The position numbers and the translations under genes were made by a program. Positions 1 through 10,047 of a stretch of DNA of 62,515 nt are shown in pieces. Each line of letters opens with the position of its first letter. Position 1 is the first letter of the stretch. Source of the DNA: an uncultured Ruminiclostridium sp. (lineage in GTDB: Bacteria; Bacillota; Clostridia; Oscillospirales; Ruminococcaceae); contig CAJOMV010000067.1 in the NCBI GenBank assembly GCA_905235805.1, forward strand, positions 1-62,515, written 5' to 3'. Under the pieces are notes generated by a model. That model did no database searches and was not told the origin of the DNA. It was given only the letters and a program-made list of their open reading frames with translations.

Positions 1-3000
1 AAGTCCCATGTCAGTGGTGCCTGCGTTCGTGCGGGCTGCCGTAGCTTCGCCGGAGAACGTAAAGTCGTTATCCACGTCATACAGCTCAGAGGACGCCGCT
101 GCTGTATACCCGGTGACTGTATGTGCTTCACCGTCATAGTCAGCGGTATTACTGTTACCGGTTATGGTGACAGTGACATTTATCGGAGCAATAGTCAGAT
201 ATCCGTCAGCCGCTACATCGAATGTGACATCAAAGTTTGAATTGTTATTCGTGAATATTCCCGCAGTGAGACCCATATACACGGTGTCTGCGTTTATGCC
301 CGAAGCCTCAGCGAGTGCCGATCCGGGAGAGAAGTACGCTTCGGTGTACAGTGGGTCACTGATAGCCGCGGTATAGCCCGTAACGCTCTGCAATTCCCCG
401 TTGTAATCGACAGCGGCGTTATTTCCGGTTATTGTTACAGTGACCGGGCGCGGTATTATCGCAAAAGATCTGTAGCGATCGCCGGGGAGAACATAGCAGG
501 AGCTCTTTGCTCCGTCCAGGCTGTTTACCAGTGCTTCATAGCCTGTTCCCGCGTCTATCGGGGTCATGCCTGCACCGATAACGTTCGGTGTCACATCATC
601 GCCCGAAATAAGGTTCCCGAGAGTTACCGCCGGGTACTGCACTTCGCCGTTATATACAAGTGAAGTGCTTCCCCAGTTGAGGGTTACCTCGCGGGGGGAT
701 ACCGTAAAGTACCTGCAGCGATCGAGATCATAATGCTCCCTGCCGCCGTCTACATGCAATTCTACCTCTACTTCACCGACATTGCTGACCGTCATTATAC
801 CGGTCGTCGGATCATATTCCGCGCCTGTCACTGTGAAGTCGGTCTTCTCCACCACAGACCTGTCCGTGCCGGAAAGGTATTCCATAAGGTCAAAGGTCGA
901 TCCGTCACCGTAAACAAAGTCCGAAATTTCGGTTAGGCTGATGTCGTAGTATTCCTTATTGAGCATTACGATATCTACCGTAAGCATGTAGTTTTCATAA
1001 TTGTCGCAGTCTGTGACATTTATCGACAGCGTTGCGTTATATCCCGCATAAACGGAAATATCACGCATTTTGAAAGTAAGCGTCGAGGTCGATGAGTCAA
1101 AATTGTAGGTATCTATTATATCGTGAGAGTCTGTCTTGCTCACACTTTCGGCATCAAGCCGACCGCCTGCTTCGATGTAGGAAGCGAGCGATAATTCGCC
1201 TGTATTTCCGAAGTTTTCTCTGGTCGTTACCGTTACATCGGGATGGGCTTTCTTAGTGACCCTGACCGTCACGGGCTCAGCGTAACCGCCGATAACATAG
1301 CAGCCGCTCTTGGCGCCGGTCAGTGATACACCCGTAACGGACGTTACCGTGACACTGTCACCCGCAACAGCTGTACTGCTTATCTGTCCCACGGCTCCCG
1401 TAACGCTGACGGAAACATCGTCACCCGTGAGGAAGTCGGAGGAAGTACCCGACGCGAAGGTCACCGTCATATCATCGGGGTCATAAGGCTTGTCGTTCGC
1501 TGTGAGGGCTACCGTTACCGGCTTCGGGACCACCTTGAGGAGATAGTAGTCTTCAACGGGTCCGTATACGCCCTCCGCGTCACAGTGAGCTGTTATCCTC
1601 GCGGTGCCGACGCCGTTCAGAGTCAGAGTGCCGTCCGATGCTACGGTCGCAACCTCTTCATTGTCGCTGGAGTATGTGAATGGATTGCTGCCGTCGGTGG
1701 CTGCTCTGTACGAGGTATCGGCGGTGCCGTAGGTCAGGGTGACCTTCTTGTCCTCTATCGGGGGAGTTTCCGCGGGAGAGCCTGTGCCGACAGCGAATGA
1801 TATCGTACGGCTCACGCCCACGGGGGATATCATCACGACCACCGTGACAGGATAATAATACTCGTTCTCGACCTTGAAGCTGAATATCGCGGGAACGCCG
1901 TTTTCCACTAAGCTGTAATCGGCTTTCAGGGTAAAATCGACCGCTTTTGTTCCGCTGTTGTATGCGGGTGTACCTGTCAGGACACTGCTCACGCTGCCCA
2001 CGGATTCTATCGTGCCGCCAACAAAGGTCAGCCCGGGAACGGACGTAAGCTGTGTCTGAACATCTTCCTCTATACTTATGGAATCCGACGTTCCGATAGG
2101 CACGGAACGACTTACCATAATATAATTGGGGTATTTCTTTTTAATGATACTTACAGTAAGCGAATGAGTGCCGCCTGTATAGGAGTGGTTGCTGTCAGGG
2201 TCAAGCGTATAATATACGGTATAATTGCCTAAAGCAGTCGCCGTAGGTTCGTCAGCGCTGTAGTCCTCGTCGTTCAGGCTGTACTTGATAGTACCGCCTG
2301 TCGCTGTTCCGAGACTCGAAAGAAGTGTCTGCGGCTCGCCGTCATAATAAATAGTATCCTGCCCCACCGGAGCTGTGTCAATAGTGGCGGGGGCTTTTGT
2401 AATACTGAATGGTACTTCGACATTAACAACAGTATAATTGCCGTCGTTTTTGTTATTTACCAAGACATATTTATTACCCGTAACATTTGTGAAGTCGCCC
2501 GAGTACGATACCACATATTCGGTCACGGGTATAACATTATCTCCGTCATTGACCGTGACATTCGGCTTGTGTTCCGCGCCGTCGTATTCATGAGAAGTCT
2601 CCGAGAGTGTCACCGTCGGTGTGACTGTCTTTTTGTTGATCGTGAAGGACGTGGTCATGTCAGCGGGCGGAATATAGTTACCTTCTTTTGCGGTGGTGCC
2701 GTTGAAATTGATAGTGGCTGTCGCTGTGTATGTTCCGGCGTTTGTCTGCGCGCCGCTGACCCTAACTGTGCAGGTCTCGCTGCCGACAAGTCCCGTGACC
2801 TCCACAGTAGGCTTCTGCGAGCTTCTGTTATAGGTCAGCGCAGTATTGCTCCACGATAATCCCAGCTGTACCCGCTCTATCATGAAATTAACTGTCGTGT
2901 CAAAGCTGTAATTGCAGGTGTTCTTTGACGTGACCCTCACTGTCGCGGTACCCGCGTCTGTATTGCCGGAATACGATATATTGTATTGGCTCGGGTCTAT

Positions 3001-5620
3001 CACAACATTTCCGACCATAACGGAGGTGACATCCGGTGTTCTTGCAGCTCCGTTGTATTCGTAGCTGTACTGCGAGAGGGTCACTGCCGGGTCGGCTGAC
3101 TGCTGTGTGATAGCGAAGGTCGCGGTGCCGCTGATAATGTAGTTGCCGCCGTCCCTATCACTGACTGTGACCGTCGCGGTGCCGATGTCTGTATTTGCGG
3201 AATATGCGACACTATAATCGTCCGCGGTAAAGACTATATCGCCGTACTTTACAGTTACGGGAGGCTTTATCTCACTTCCTGTGTAGGTGTAGGAGGACTC
3301 GGGAACCGTTACCGTCGCGGTAATAGACATGGGGTTTATAGTGAAATTCGCCGTCTTCGTCGAAAAAGAGTAATTGCCGCCGCTGTTGTCGGTTACGGTG
3401 ACTGTCGCGGTACCCGCGTTTGTATTGTTGGAATACGATACCGTGTATTCGCCGGAGTCTATGACAGTATCTCCGTCCTTGACAGTAACTGTAGGCTTTT
3501 TTGCGCTGCCGTCGTATGTGTAGGAGGTCTGCGAGAGCGTCACTGTCGGTGTGACAGACTTAGCCGAAATAGTGAATGTGTTGGAGCCGTTGACCGTATA
3601 GTTGCCGCCGTTTTTGTCTGTGACAGTGACTGTCGCTGTACCCGCGTTTGTATTGTTGGAATACGATACCGTATATTCGCTTGCGGGTATTTCAGTACTG
3701 TTGTCCTTGACGGTAACTGTAGGCTCATTTGCGCTGCCGTTGTATGTGTAGGAGGAAGGAGAAAGCGTGATAGTCGGGCTGTTGACAGTCTTAGCCGTAA
3801 TAGTGAAGGACTGCGTGGTGTTAGTGGGTTGATTGTAGTTAGAGGAGCAGGTGATATTCGCTGTCGCGGAATAGCTTCCGACATCTGTCTGCTCTCCCGA
3901 GACTGCCACTGTCACAGTCTCACCGTTTACAGCTCCGCTCAACTCCGCCGTGGGTGCATGAGGACTTCCGTCATAAGTGAAGGAGGGCGTGGTGTCCGTC
4001 GTGGTGTCCCATGTGAGGGTGAGGTCTTTCTTGTTGACTGTGAAGGTCTTTATGAACGGATCGCCGGAGTATTTGCCCGTCGGGGTTATTGTAAGAGTGT
4101 ATGTAGCTGCGTCCTTTATAATCGAAGTACCGGTTGCGCCATTCGAAATCGACAGAGTATAGTCTGTGTCCTTTGTTAGAGTAATTCTATTATAAATAAC
4201 AGAGGGTATGGTTTGGTTCGAGCCTGTGTATGTTGCAGAATCGTTAGAAAGGCTGGTGTTTGCAGCGGTCAATGGTGTTGACCAGACAGCATAGAGTCTT
4301 TCACCATTGCTGATAGGAGTGCTGCTATCTAAAGCCGTAGTCGCGCCAGATGATTCTGCCCACCCTAACAAAGTATGACCAGCCCATGTCGGGGTATCGG
4401 TTATAGCTGATATTGTTGAACCATAAGGCAGTTGAACAGTTTTTGTATTCGCGTCGCTAAAACTACCGCCGTTGGCGTAAAGAGTAACGACGGTAGCTTG
4501 TAAAAGTTGAAGATCGTCGTTAGAATATGCCTTGTATATACAATATGCTTCGTTGTCAGAGAAGAAAAACGTGTCTGCGGCATCACCGGAATTATTTGCA
4601 TTATAGTTTCGAGTAAAATAACTTGCACTGCGCAAAGAAATACCCATACGAGCACCTGTTGTAAGAGCGCTACTAAAGTACATCCTATTATCACGCGTCC
4701 CAGCATTATTCAAATAAATGTTATTAGCGGTGTTTTCTGTTCCGGCAGTATTATCGGTAACTACGGGATTACCATTAACCTCAAAAGTTTGAGTGTTGAA
4801 ATATATACCGCCGCCATTTCCGCCAGTGTGATTACCTGTTATCCTGCCGCCTAAAAGAATTAGTTGTCCCAAATTACCAATACAAACACCTCCACCGTCC
4901 GATCCTGCAGTATTACCGGATATTGTACCGCCATTAATGAACAATTTACATTCCGATGAACTATAAATACCTCCACCCTTTTGTCCGGCATTATTATCAG
5001 ATATTGTTCCACCATTATTAATGATCAAATAACCTTTTTCACCATAAATACCTCCGCCATTATTGGTAGCTCTATTTCCGGTAATTACGCCGCCTTCAAT
5101 TGTAACTGTTCCGCTATTAAGATATATAGCTCCGCCGCCTTTAGAACCGGTGGATTCATTACCGGTTATTGTGCCGCCATTAATGGTCAAGGTTCCACTA
5201 TTTATAACACTAATTGCACCTCCGTTACTACCGGTATTTCCTCCGGTGATTCTGCCAGCGTTAGTGTCGCTCGAATCATTTATGGTAAGATAGCTATTAT
5301 TTACTACTATAATTGCATTATTTGCTGTACTGCTCCAGTTTGTATTTATTGTATGACCGTTTAAATCGAGTACGACTGTTTTTTTTGCACCAACTGATAA
5401 ATACTTATTTTCGGGAACAGTGATATCACTAGTAAGCTGTATAGTAACATCATTATTCATTTGGGTGTAAAGCTGATCATAAGTACTAACTGATACCGCA
5501 CTCGCCTGCACGGCAAAAAGACCTCCCAAAATCGGGGGGGGTATCGGGTGCGGCTGAAAGTACCATTGCGCCGGCGATCAGAACACTTGCGAGCTTCCTC
5601 AAAAATCCCTTTTTGTTCAT
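1..5620 (-). CDS. Giant secreted surface adhesin (signal peptide, GGxI/TG beta-helix repeats, Listeria-Bacteroides-type repeat, tandem MBG/Ig-like repeats); partial at left edge; frameshifted at a C8 tract near 5533-5541
   Basis: ATG at 5620 gives MNKKGFLRKLASVLIAGAMVLSAAPDTPP and then shifts frame. The frame with codon first bases at multiples of 3 reads ...ILGGLFAVQASAVSVSTYDQLYTQMNND... and appears open to base 1. I spot-checked it near 3660 (SNNTNAGTATVTVTDKNGGN) and 120 (TVTGYTAAASSELYDVDNDF). It is absent from the ORF track, probably because it runs off the window. Confidence 0.85.
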
Positions 5621-5675
5621 ATTTTTATCCGTCCTTTCACATGGAAAATGGAATAATATACAAATATACATCATC

Positions 5676-5704
5676 ATTATAATATAAGAAAAGAAAATAT
5701 TCAA
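5676..5704 (-). promoter_or_regulatory. Sigma-A-type promoter for the adhesin (TTGAAT-N17-TATAAT)
   Basis: Reverse complement reads TTGAAT ATTTTCTTTTCTTATAT TATAAT, about 56 bp upstream of the ATG at 5620. Confidence 0.65.
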
Positions 5705-5828
5705 TAGGCTTTGACGAATTTTGTTGGATTTATGAACAAAATATGCAAAATTTCGCATAAAATTTGGAATATGAACGATGTATATTTCCATTTGTTCATG
5801 TTTAAAGCTTATATAAACAAAAATAACA

Positions 5829-5862
5829 AAAAACCTCCCCGCTCCCGACGGAGCAGAGAGGT
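5829..5862 (-). terminator. Intrinsic terminator downstream of the hybrid kinase gene
   Basis: Minus strand ACCTCTCTGCTCCGTCGGGAGCGGGGAGGTTTTTTG: imperfect stem followed by a T run. Confidence 0.7.
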
Positions 5863-5873
5863 GATCCCGATAT

Positions 5874-5934
5874 CGCCGCAAAGCGGCGCACCACAACTAT
5901 TCACTTTTCACTGTTCATTATTCACTATTCATCG
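5874..5934. repeat. Interspersed element: CGCCGCAAAGCGGCG hairpin, GCACCAcAACT, then 5x heptamer TTCAYTN
   Basis: TTCACTT TTCACTG TTCATTA TTCACTA TTCATCG at 5900-5934. A matching copy lies at 44606-44665. Confidence 0.75.
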
Positions 5935-8675
5935 AGCGCGGTCAGCGCTTTCAGCTTCCCCCAGTCCACCTGTTCGGCGGCGTAGAGGAGAGCGGAGACC
6001 TTGTCGGCGTGCTCCGGGGGTATGGAGAAGGAGTCAAGCCTGTCGGCGATGTCACAGACGGCGTCGAAGTCGAAGTTTTCGGAGGCGGTGCGAAGCTCGG
6101 AGTAGAGGGCGGAGAGCTGCTCGGGTGAGGCGAGCGGGCGGTCGGCGGGCGGCTCGGGTGAAGCGAAGCCATAGCGGACGAGAACGCCGCGGTACATGGA
6201 GAGGAGCTCGGGGGTATTCTCGCGGATAAAGGCGAGGTCACGGCTGTCGCCGGCTTGCTCGAGCTTTGCGGCGAGGTCGGCTATGCGGGTCTCACCGACG
6301 AGGCGGGAGGTGCTCTTGAGGGCGTGGACTTTAATGGTGTAGTTCTCCCAGTCGGCGGAGTTGAAGCACTGCTCTATCGCGGAGGACATATTTTCGATGT
6401 CCGCGAGGTAGATCTCCATGACGCCGTCCTTGTCGAAGTCGTCCGTCGGTGTGGGAGCGCCTATGGGCGGGAGAACAAGCTCCGGCGGGAGGAGCTCCAC
6501 GGTCATCGCTTCGAGCCGCATGGGGTCTATGGGCTTGGTGAGGTATTCGGTGAAGCCCGCGGCTATGTACTGCTCACGAACGCCCGAGACGGCATTCGCG
6601 GTGAGACAGACGGCGGGGGTGTCGCGGTTGAGACCGTCCGGGTCGGATATTATCTCCGCGAGAGTCTCGAGTCCGTCCTTGACGGGCATTCTGTGGTCGA
6701 GGAAGAGGATATCGTAGCGTATCTTCCGGCAGAGCTGAATGGCTTCATCGCCGCTTGTGGCGCTTTCTATCTGCATCTGCGTGTTTTTGAGGAGCGAGCG
6801 GAACACCATTATGTTCATTTCCGTGTCGTCCACCACAAGTATCTTTGCCCCCGGTGCGCAGAAGGATTCGTAATACTTCCTGCGCGCGGCTACGGAGCGC
6901 TCGAGCGCCTGGCTGTAGTCGCCTATGGGGGTATCCTTGACAATGGTCTGGCGGAGAGTGAAGCCGAAGGTGGAGCCCTTCCCGTACTCGCTTTCTATCT
7001 CGAGGCGGCTACCCATGAGGGTGAGGAGGCTCTGCACTATGGAGAGACCGAGTCCCGTGCCTTCAATGGAGCGGTTGCGGTTCTCATCGATACGCTCGAA
7101 GGCTATGAAGAGCTTGTCGATGTCGTCCTTGCGGATCCCTATGCCGGTGTCGGTGACCCTCACAGTGAGGTCGGTATAGCCGTCGCCCTTCTTGTGGGTG
7201 ACGGAGAGGGTCACGGAGCCCTCCTTCGTGTATTTGACCGCGTTTGTGAGGATATTTGTGATTATCTGCTTTACGCGTATCTCGTCGCCGTGGAGGTAAT
7301 CGGGGATATCCGGTTCAGCCCGCACTATCAGCTCGAGCCCCTTATCACGCGCCCGCGGCTCTATCATGTTGGAGAGGTCGTTGAGCACCGAGGAGAACTG
7401 ATAGTCCACCTCGATTATCTCGGTCTTCCCCGCTTCTATCTTGGAGAAGTCCAGCACGTCGTTTATCAGACCGAGGAGCGTGTTGCCCGCCTTGCGGATA
7501 TCCTCGGCGTATTCGAGGGTCTGCTCGTCGGAGCTTTCCCGCAGTATCATCTCGTCCATACCGAGTATAGCGTTGATAGGTGTGCGTATCTCATGGGACA
7601 TATTCGCGAGGAAATCGCCCTTCGCGCGGGAAACAGCCTCCGCGGATTCCCTTGCCTGCTTTAACAGGCGTATGTAGCGGTATTCCTCCGTCTTGTCGTC
7701 TATGCGTATCTGATAGCCCTTGTGCTTCCTGCCGGAGTCTATGGGGCTTACGGTTATCTTGTAGTTTATCCCGTCACGCTCGAGTTCAAGCTCCGCACTG
7801 CCCTCCGAGCTGTCCATGGCGTCCAGCCAGCCCTTTATCAGCGCGGTGGAGGGTTCGTTCTCCGGGAGCTGCTTATCCACATATATCCTGTCAAACTCCG
7901 GGAAATACTCCGCGGCGGGAGGATTGCAGCCCAGAAATCTGCGCTTGTGGTCGAAGGAAGCGAAGCCCGTGCGTTCCTCCTGCATTGCCGTTGATACGGC
8001 GACATCGGTTATCGAGTACATCTTGAGCCGTCCGCTCATCACAAGCAGCAGCACCTGCGTCAGCACATAGGTCATCGGCAGCAGCTCCACCGGCAGGGAG
8101 AGCGCTCTCCCCAGCAGGAACCCCGACAGATTGACGAAGTACAGCGCGAACAGCAGCAGGGCGTTGCGCTTGGACACGTCCTTCCGCCTGAAGCCGTATA
8201 TCAGCGCCGCGAGCTCCGCCAGCAGGTAGAAGCCCAGCAGCATATAATACACGGTATGCAGCGGACCGTATTCCTTCACGAGATATCCCGGCATTCCCTT
8301 GTCCATGGGGACGAAGTCCACGCTTGAATATATCAGACCGTTATGGGTAGCCGTCAGCGCAGTGCTGCCTATCAGCGCGCTTAAGACGAACAGCGGCGCC
8401 GCGGCAAGCCGGGGAATGGTTATCTTGCAGAATTTGCATATATATACAAGGTACCCGAGCTGAAGGTAGCAGGTACACAGGTACACGAGCCCGTTCGCCA
8501 GCACAGCCTCGGGGAGGTTCTCCGCTACGGCGATGCGCAGATATCCCACGTTTATTATCGGCATGAGCAGATATACTACCGAGAATTCTACGGAGATGTA
8601 CCTATTCCACCGCCACAGGAACATTCCCGACAGTGTTATCGACAGATACAGCGCTATCTGATAGTATGCTATCAT
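5925..8675 (-). CDS. Hybrid sensor histidine kinase (multi-TM N-terminus, HisKA, HATPase, REC, Hpt)
   Basis: FLANMSHEIRTPINAILGMDE (H box), GTGLGLSIVQSLLTLMGSRLEIESEYGKGSTF, ILVVDDTEMNIMVFRSLLK...ILFLDHRMPVKDGLE (REC), KVHALKSTSRLVGE (Hpt). Start chosen at 8675 because GGAGGAG lies just upstream. The ORF track start is 8693. Confidence 0.93.
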   Translation of the reverse strand: MIAYYQIALYLSITLSGMFLWRWNRYISVEFSVVYLLMPIINVGYLRIAVAENLPEAVLANGLVYLCTCYLQLGYLVYICKFCKITIPRLAAAPLFVLSALIGSTALTATHNGLIYSSVDFVPMDKGMPGYLVKEYGPLHTVYYMLLGFYLLAELAALIYGFRRKDVSKRNALLLFALYFVNLSGFLLGRALSLPVELLPMTYVLTQVLLLVMSGRLKMYSITDVAVSTAMQEERTGFASFDHKRRFLGCNPPAAEYFPEFDRIYVDKQLPENEPSTALIKGWLDAMDSSEGSAELELERDGINYKITVSPIDSGRKHKGYQIRIDDKTEEYRYIRLLKQARESAEAVSRAKGDFLANMSHEIRTPINAILGMDEMILRESSDEQTLEYAEDIRKAGNTLLGLINDVLDFSKIEAGKTEIIEVDYQFSSVLNDLSNMIEPRARDKGLELIVRAEPDIPDYLHGDEIRVKQIITNILTNAVKYTKEGSVTLSVTHKKGDGYTDLTVRVTDTGIGIRKDDIDKLFIAFERIDENRNRSIEGTGLGLSIVQSLLTLMGSRLEIESEYGKGSTFGFTLRQTIVKDTPIGDYSQALERSVAARRKYYESFCAPGAKILVVDDTEMNIMVFRSLLKNTQMQIESATSGDEAIQLCRKIRYDILFLDHRMPVKDGLETLAEIISDPDGLNRDTPAVCLTANAVSGVREQYIAAGFTEYLTKPIDPMRLEAMTVELLPPELVLPPIGAPTPTDDFDKDGVMEIYLADIENMSSAIEQCFNSADWENYTIKVHALKSTSRLVGETRIADLAAKLEQAGDSRDLAFIRENTPELLSMYRGVLVRYGFASPEPPADRPLASPEQLSALYSELRTASENFDFDAVCDIADRLDSFSIPPEHADKVSALLYAAEQVDWGKLKALTALDE

Positions 8676-10047
8676 TTTTCTCCTCCACCTCACCGTCGTT
8701 GAATAATGCCGTCAGCTCATCGGGTTCTATGGGTTCCCCTTTCAGATATCTTCTGTAGAGCTGCTCCGGCTCCACAATTATCATTCCCACCCATTTTTCA
8801 AGGTTGTCAAAATCATTGTCTGATGCGTCATCGGCTGTTTTGCCGCGGAACTGCACGAATTCTCCGCGGCGCACATACCCTGCGTGCGAGTACCAGTTCT
8901 TACCATTCGGAATATGCCCCCGGGCGAGCGCCCTGAACCCGTCGTTCATCGGGAAAAGGAAGGAATTGCTGCGTATCAAAGCGTCGCCTCCCGCTTCCTT
9001 CCTGATAAACATATAGTAGGATATCTGCTTCACGATATCCGAATTCGCCGGGAGCCCGTTCCCGTTCTCCTTTGGAGCATAATACTTGGAATCGAATATG
9101 TGTATCTTTTCGGCATGTTCATTTCTCTTGATTATATGTACAGTGTCGGGTATCTGATCGCCTTTTCCGTTCAACGGCTCGCGTTCCTTGAAGTGATACC
9201 GGGGATTGCCGCTTTCCCATTTGCCGGGAGTTCCCCACACATAGTCATTTGTGCGCTCCCAGACCCGATGGAACACTGTAGTCCCGGAATCCTCGCGATA
9301 GTAACGAGTAGCCCCGCAGAACGCCTCCAGAGCTCTGAAAAGGTTCAGTGTGCGTTCTTCAAATACCGAAGCGCTTCTCCGGGCAATAAGTCCGCAGTAG
9401 CCCGAAAGATCGTCTCCGAGCTCCGCCGCCGTCCGTACCGGCTCTACCCTGATATCGGATATCCCCGACAGGAATTTCGCGCTGCGGTTGACTGCCGCGG
9501 CGTGCAGCATCGTCATTATATCCGACGGGTCGTCAATAACACGGCGGTTCACAGTGTCGGGATAAATGACCGTGCCTCTGTCTATTATCGGAGCGCAGCG
9601 CCGTACCGTAGCGCCCCACAGAGTTTTTCCGCGCCCCGCTCGCTGCTTCTCTATATCCTTTTTCACATACAGCCCGTGTATGATATAGTCCCGCAGTATG
9701 TACTCCGAGAGCGCGTACTTATCGACACGCTTTCGCTTCTCATGCGGGACAGTCACATCGAATACCGAGTCCACTTCGTCGTCATCAAGCGCGTCTGTCC
9801 GGGAACGTATCCTCTCTATCACCCGGCACACAAGCGTCATGTACTCTCTCGCAGCCTTCACGTCCGTAAGCATACTGTCCGGGCAGTACTTCGGCAGGCT
9901 GTATATCACGGTATCGCCTTTGTCAAACCTGCAGCAGCCGACAAACTGTACCTTCCCTTTCCGTATATAGCCGTTCCTGCGCTTGAGAAAACTATATATA
10001 TCCGCCTCCGGTTTATCGCCTTCCCGCGTGATAAGAGGCTCAGCCAT
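8602..10047 (-). CDS. LlaJI/McrC-like restriction endonuclease subunit
   Basis: Adjacent to an McrB-like GTPase, with PD-(D/E)xK-like ...IHIFDSKYYAPKENG... and VQFVGCCRFDKGDTVIYSLPKY. The start overlaps the end of the McrB ORF by 8 nt. Confidence 0.7.
   Translation of the reverse strand: MAEPLITREGDKPEADIYSFLKRRNGYIRKGKVQFVGCCRFDKGDTVIYSLPKYCPDSMLTDVKAAREYMTLVCRVIERIRSRTDALDDDEVDSVFDVTVPHEKRKRVDKYALSEYILRDYIIHGLYVKKDIEKQRAGRGKTLWGATVRRCAPIIDRGTVIYPDTVNRRVIDDPSDIMTMLHAAAVNRSAKFLSGISDIRVEPVRTAAELGDDLSGYCGLIARRSASVFEERTLNLFRALEAFCGATRYYREDSGTTVFHRVWERTNDYVWGTPGKWESGNPRYHFKEREPLNGKGDQIPDTVHIIKRNEHAEKIHIFDSKYYAPKENGNGLPANSDIVKQISYYMFIRKEAGGDALIRSNSFLFPMNDGFRALARGHIPNGKNWYSHAGYVRRGEFVQFRGKTADDASDNDFDNLEKWVGMIIVEPEQLYRRYLKGEPIEPDELTALFNDGEVEEKNDSILSDSAVSVDNTVGNVPVAVE

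Follow-up and report, generated by a model that had tools for sequence, protein, structure and literature searches.

Genes and features at the locus

The window, meaning the whole stretch of DNA analysed here, is an entire contig (C67) of 62,515 bp from a metagenome-derived assembly of 134 contigs and 2.43 Mb that is 80.7% complete. Its minus strand carries the following features, given from upstream to downstream:

5925–8693, minus strand: hybrid histidine kinase, the intact upstream neighbour (7TM, HisKA, HATPase, receiver and Hpt domains)
5833–5862, minus strand: intrinsic terminator with a 13-bp stem and a T tail, between the histidine kinase gene and the surface-protein gene
5676–5704, minus strand: sigma-70-like promoter, TTGAAT-17 nt-TATAAT, 55 nt upstream of the ATG and matching 10 of 12 consensus positions
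5632–5637, minus strand: putative Shine-Dalgarno-like sequence AAAGGA upstream of ATG 5620
5486–5620, minus strand: frame as assembled with 8 C, a truncated signal-peptide product of 44 codons from ATG 5620 to the stop TAG at 5488–5486
5534–5541, minus strand (read from 5541 down to 5534): C8 homopolymer where the signal peptide is encoded, out of frame by one base with the gene downstream
1–5533, minus strand: open downstream frame of 1,843 codons from TTG 5529 that runs off the contig, with an AVQASA signal-peptide end, a parallel beta-helix and MBG/Ig-like repeats

A first-pass annotation of this DNA had described an early frame break at a C8 tract, followed by an open frame of about 1,840 codons, and both are confirmed here, with the tract position corrected from 5533–5541 to 5534–5541. 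As assembled, translation from ATG 5620 gives the 44-aa product MNKKGFLRKLASVLIAGAMVLSAAPDTPPDFGRSFCRAGECGIS and stops at 5486, while the frame past the tract, ILGGLFAVQASAVSVSTYDQ..., stays open to base 1 of the window. Downstream of the tract this frame contains 0 stops, the other two contain 130 and 106, and the probability of so long an open frame at the given base composition is ~e^-93. A change of one base at the tract decides whether the gene, intact apart from this, is read in frame, and the large surface-protein gene would be OFF in the assembled copy through one extra C. Internal restarts at TTG 5529 or at a GTG (codon 7 of the TTG frame) were considered and rejected, as the product would be without a signal peptide, and the GGAGG nearby belongs to Gly-Gly codons.

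The claim that the gene has an intact promoter also held, with a promoter-like site and a ribosome site of its own upstream of ATG 5620, although promoter-like sites numbered 2 against 1.1 expected in shuffles. The strong terminator between the histidine kinase gene and the surface-protein gene indicates that the latter is a separate transcription unit. Further upstream, a 481-aa gene (8602–10047) overlaps the histidine kinase gene by ~74–92 nt in a different frame (window 8602–8693), the histidine kinase starting at either GTG 8693 or ATG 8675.

Signal peptide and protein architecture

The 128-residue N-terminus obtained by reading through the tract aligned with surface proteins of congeners (L066, L070, L071 and L074) in a single frame across the tract, with alignments that begin at residue 3–10 and extend to, or almost to, the last residue of the query. 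The congener signal peptides follow a common plan of a basic start, a hydrophobic core and a cleavage region of the LPDxxxLLPxLTVxASA type, which is matched by ...APDTPPILGGLFAVQASA; MKKLIRKIAALLTASTIALAAVTLPDTEGLLPGLTVRASA in L071 is an example of a congener signal peptide matching across the tract. Since the related signal peptides match the other-frame reading, the gene is truly interrupted as assembled. A C run at the equivalent place was absent from all the related genes of the genus that were examined. The locus itself had no orthologue in a nucleotide search of 71 congeneric genomes, the surface-protein gene had no close homologue in the genus, and the region around it showed no DNA-level conservation either. 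A scan of the genome collection returned distant beta-helix relatives only, whose best segment reached at most ~50% identity.

The first several hundred residues of the open frame consist of GGGIY...G-type beta-helix repeats, followed by MBG/Ig-like repeats with domain matches to MBG_3 (E=1e-4, just under the curated cut-off) and Big_2 (E=7e-5, just over the curated cut-off). The start of another contig of the assembly, C108, is identical over 17 nt to the end of the window and in frame with it, so that C67 and C108 would form one gene, joined by this 17-nt overlap alone. C108 carries on the same repeats and then shows a PPSEEPPAEE wall-spanning segment and NPATGTNTGNVFALTVVFAAIALLSRKRGK, with NPATG, a hydrophobic stretch and a basic tail at the C-terminus. 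Against the Rumino_NPXTG model (NCBIfam NF033846) this tail scored 19.1 bits (E=0.001), below the curated cut-off of 23.5. With the ~765 codons contributed by C108, the whole gene would span ~2,600 codons with a single lesion, and no further stop or frameshift was found in the 1,843 codons on C67 or the ~765 on C108. The undamaged state of the remainder argues for a recent, a segregating or an artefactual break.

The gene encodes a giant surface protein, probably anchored in the cell wall, in a Clostridia bacterium of gut type. It resembles the Ruminococcus-type NPXTG-anchored proteins (NF033846) in its NPATG tail on C108, its long Pro/Glu-rich wall-spanning segment and its N-terminal signal peptide, and differs in that the model match is under the curated cut-off and the two contigs are linked by the short overlap only. 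In the term “giant adhesin” used in the first-pass annotation, the surface-protein character is borne out by the signal peptide, the beta-helix and Ig-like repeats and the putative NPXTG anchor on C108, whereas “adhesin” is a guess from domain type.

Length and composition of the tract

The C8 at 5534–5541 lies within coding sequence and is of switch-competent repeat length by the cut-off of at least 7 G/C applied in the Campylobacter tract search (PMC6321876), falling in the switch-competent range for both Campylobacter and Neisseria (PMC6321876, PMC5084427). In Campylobacter, poly-G lengths peak at 9–10 and runs of at least 7 exceed chance expectation (PMC6321876); in N. meningitidis and C. 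jejuni, tracts of at least 8 vary as a rule (PMC5084427, PMC6321876). The likeness of the present locus to these contingency loci consists in a C/G 8-run near the start of a surface gene and a frame that toggles with one base. It differs in that the genome has no overall C/G-run excess and no run of 9 or more and the tract is not conserved in relatives.

At the tract, Thr-Pro-Pro is spelled ACC CCC CCG, and the shares of these codons within their families in the genome are 0.44 for ACC, 0.43 for CCC and 0.44 for CCG. As all three are favoured codons, the C run requires no special explanation.

Long C/G runs across the genome

The genome contains 16 C/G runs of at least 7, of which 13 are of exactly 7, three are of 8 and none is of 9 or more. 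A 797 kb sample, which takes in both contigs holding the three 8-runs, contained 46 runs of 6, 3 of 7 and 3 of 8, against 318, 85 and 23 expected from composition; long C/G runs are thus depleted, not enriched, relative to composition. By frame, the 16 runs comprise nine that are coding and in frame, five that are non-coding or at a ribosome site and two that break a gene, so that 2/11 coding runs of at least 7 are frame-breaking, one in the surface-protein gene and the other in cysD. None of the 373 coding C/G runs of 5–6 tested showed a genuine frame switch, the three that were flagged all reading as gene boundaries. A coding-model scan of 657 kb found 0 internal frameshifts in ~540 coding segments; it also missed the cysD break and is therefore insensitive near gene starts.

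The second break lies in cysD, encoding sulfate adenylyltransferase subunit 2, and is caused by +1 C at a C7 (G000 contig C13:14914–14920; L093 1501–1507, L222). The protein begins MHELSH...KAFYPEKPP and continues, one base out of frame, as FPFLHVNTTWKF..., with both halves matching CysD models (E=4e-24 and 7e-125). In 11 congeners the gene is uninterrupted, is 93–98% identical over the second part and has no C run at the site. The frame breaks of this assembly thus cluster in the longest C runs and are not confined to surface genes, although, as two broken tracts are known in all, the statement that housekeeping genes are also affected depends on one gene.

The two remaining 8-runs of the genome (L152, G000:C71, 8576–8583 and 11233–11240) lie in a prepilin-like gene cluster, one being intergenic and the other located within a pilin-like gene, whose frame it keeps. 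Among the remaining congeners sampled, most runs of C8 or longer either kept the frame or lay between genes or at their boundaries. The many C runs of some congeners (e.g. G005 and G004) were considered as support for switching and set aside, most of the long ones drawn lying at contig ends. Such terminal runs in congener assemblies (L140, L141, L142, L144 and L145) look like poly-G sequencing artefacts.

Origin of the frame break

The reading favoured here, at somewhat below even odds (probability about 0.47), is an ordinary and potentially reversible slippage mutation at the C run. It is favoured on the combination of the break with the open frame beyond it, the signal peptides of relatives that span the tract, the continuation on C108, the codon usage and the parallel break in cysD; slippage at a C run accounts for both breaks. 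The signal peptide is incidentally written in preferred codons that produce a C run, and replication slippage may then have inserted one C, so that translation would end after 44 codons and the assembled copy be OFF. Given the undamaged remainder of the gene, the slip would be recent or segregating, and another slip at this run, plausible at such a tract length, could bring the frame back. The locus could in this way act as a low-rate site resembling phase variation, with no sign of selection as a dedicated switch. A comparable case is glpK of M. tuberculosis, which is silenced and restored through indels (PMC8339072 and references in it): there too an indel in ordinary coding sequence silences a gene that a second indel can restore, and a metabolic gene (here cysD) is also affected, although reversal was demonstrated for glpK and is only presumed here. 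Two features speak against plain slippage, namely that C8 is within the range deemed hypermutable elsewhere and that its position in a surface-protein signal peptide resembles that of contingency loci.

These features bring in the next most probable reading, a possible but rather unlikely one, in which the C run is a maintained contingency tract that toggles the surface protein at high frequency by slipped-strand mispairing, as happens in surface genes of Campylobacter or Neisseria; slipped-strand ON/OFF switching had been proposed in the first-pass annotation. The layout on which that proposal was based stands, with the frame break, the promoter, the intact frame and the surface character of the product, and a ribosome site is present as well. 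The C8 is located where the signal peptide of a large surface protein is encoded, and the gene has a promoter of its own and a frame free of other damage. The position of the other two genomic 8-runs in the prepilin gene cluster, the poly-G runs at similar genes of relatives (G14 in RGIG3872 and G13 in Methanobrevibacter cuticularis), the acyltransferase gene of congener G002 whose frame is broken at a G9 and the common variability, in both C. jejuni and N. meningitidis, of tracts of at least 8 (PMC6321876, PMC5084427) point in the same direction. The proposal is weakened by the lack of any excess of long C/G runs, with none reaching 9 as against the Campylobacter peak at 9–10 (PMC6321876), by a tract that codon usage explains and by its absence at the equivalent place in the genus relatives examined. 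It is weakened further by cysD, which carries the same event, or a miscall, where a switch would be unexpected, so that a dedicated switch at the surface-protein gene is possible and not established. Ranked third, and a little less probable again, is a sequencing or assembly error, under which the true tract length differs, the gene is intact and cysD is a second instance. Both breaks are indeed +1 C at the longest C runs, one of them in a gene expected to be functional, and the assembly is fragmentary; against this, the nine other coding runs of 7–8 and the 373 coding runs of 5–6 in the sample are in frame and the ~540 coding segments are free of internal frameshifts, which argues for good consensus quality, a level at which runs of 7–8 bases are usually right.

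Two further explanations carry far less weight. The frame is broken as assembled, as it would be in a fixed early pseudogene whose protein has been lost for good in the lineage, but a gene with no second stop or frameshift over so many codons makes this very unlikely. More improbable still is +1 ribosomal frameshifting on CCC CCC, whether leaky or programmed, by which the 8C gene, and cysD likewise, would yield some full-length protein. Slippage of +1 on CCC-C is a classic event, and runs of Pro CCC codons are present at the shift site in both breaks; however, there is no stop or pause element right at the site and no conservation, no Rfam motif was detected in 5400–6000, and the congener cysD genes are without the C run.

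Natural variation of the tract, if it occurs, would mean that a gut bacterium of commensal type switches a surface protein of ~2,600 residues by a mechanism known above all from pathogens of mucosal surfaces. Otherwise, the locus would be a caution for homopolymer frameshifts in surface genes of metagenome assemblies; with the same break in the housekeeping gene cysD, such a frameshift in a surface gene is by itself no evidence of phase variation.

Poly-C/G tracts in other gut anaerobes

It is a doubtful proposition that gut Clostridia of this genus switch giant NPXTG beta-helix proteins, pilins and glycan-modifying enzymes by poly-C/G slippage, as a surface-variation system of commensal Firmicutes. 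Three loci with longer runs (G14, G13 and G9) in relatives nevertheless make it a fair hypothesis that gut anaerobes switch surface genes by slipped-strand mispairing, and they would be better test cases than the C8. At the G9 run (L151 794–802; G002:C8:104893–104901), the frame of an Acyl_transf_3-like gene is broken at ~codon 28; its two halves, each in a frame of its own, fit the start of the family as two short pieces under the curated cut-off. In the cultured archaeon Methanobrevibacter cuticularis DSM 11139, a G13 run (L063 1301–1313) is located ~250 bp upstream of a 1,268-codon adhesin-like beta-helix frame. The G14 run (L011 265–278; JAFTJJ010000062.1, RGIG3872) is from a roe-deer Clostridia assembly and lies upstream of a 1,398-codon beta-helix surface frame, between TTGACT and TATAAT with a spacer of 21, a textbook promoter-spacer poly-G layout.
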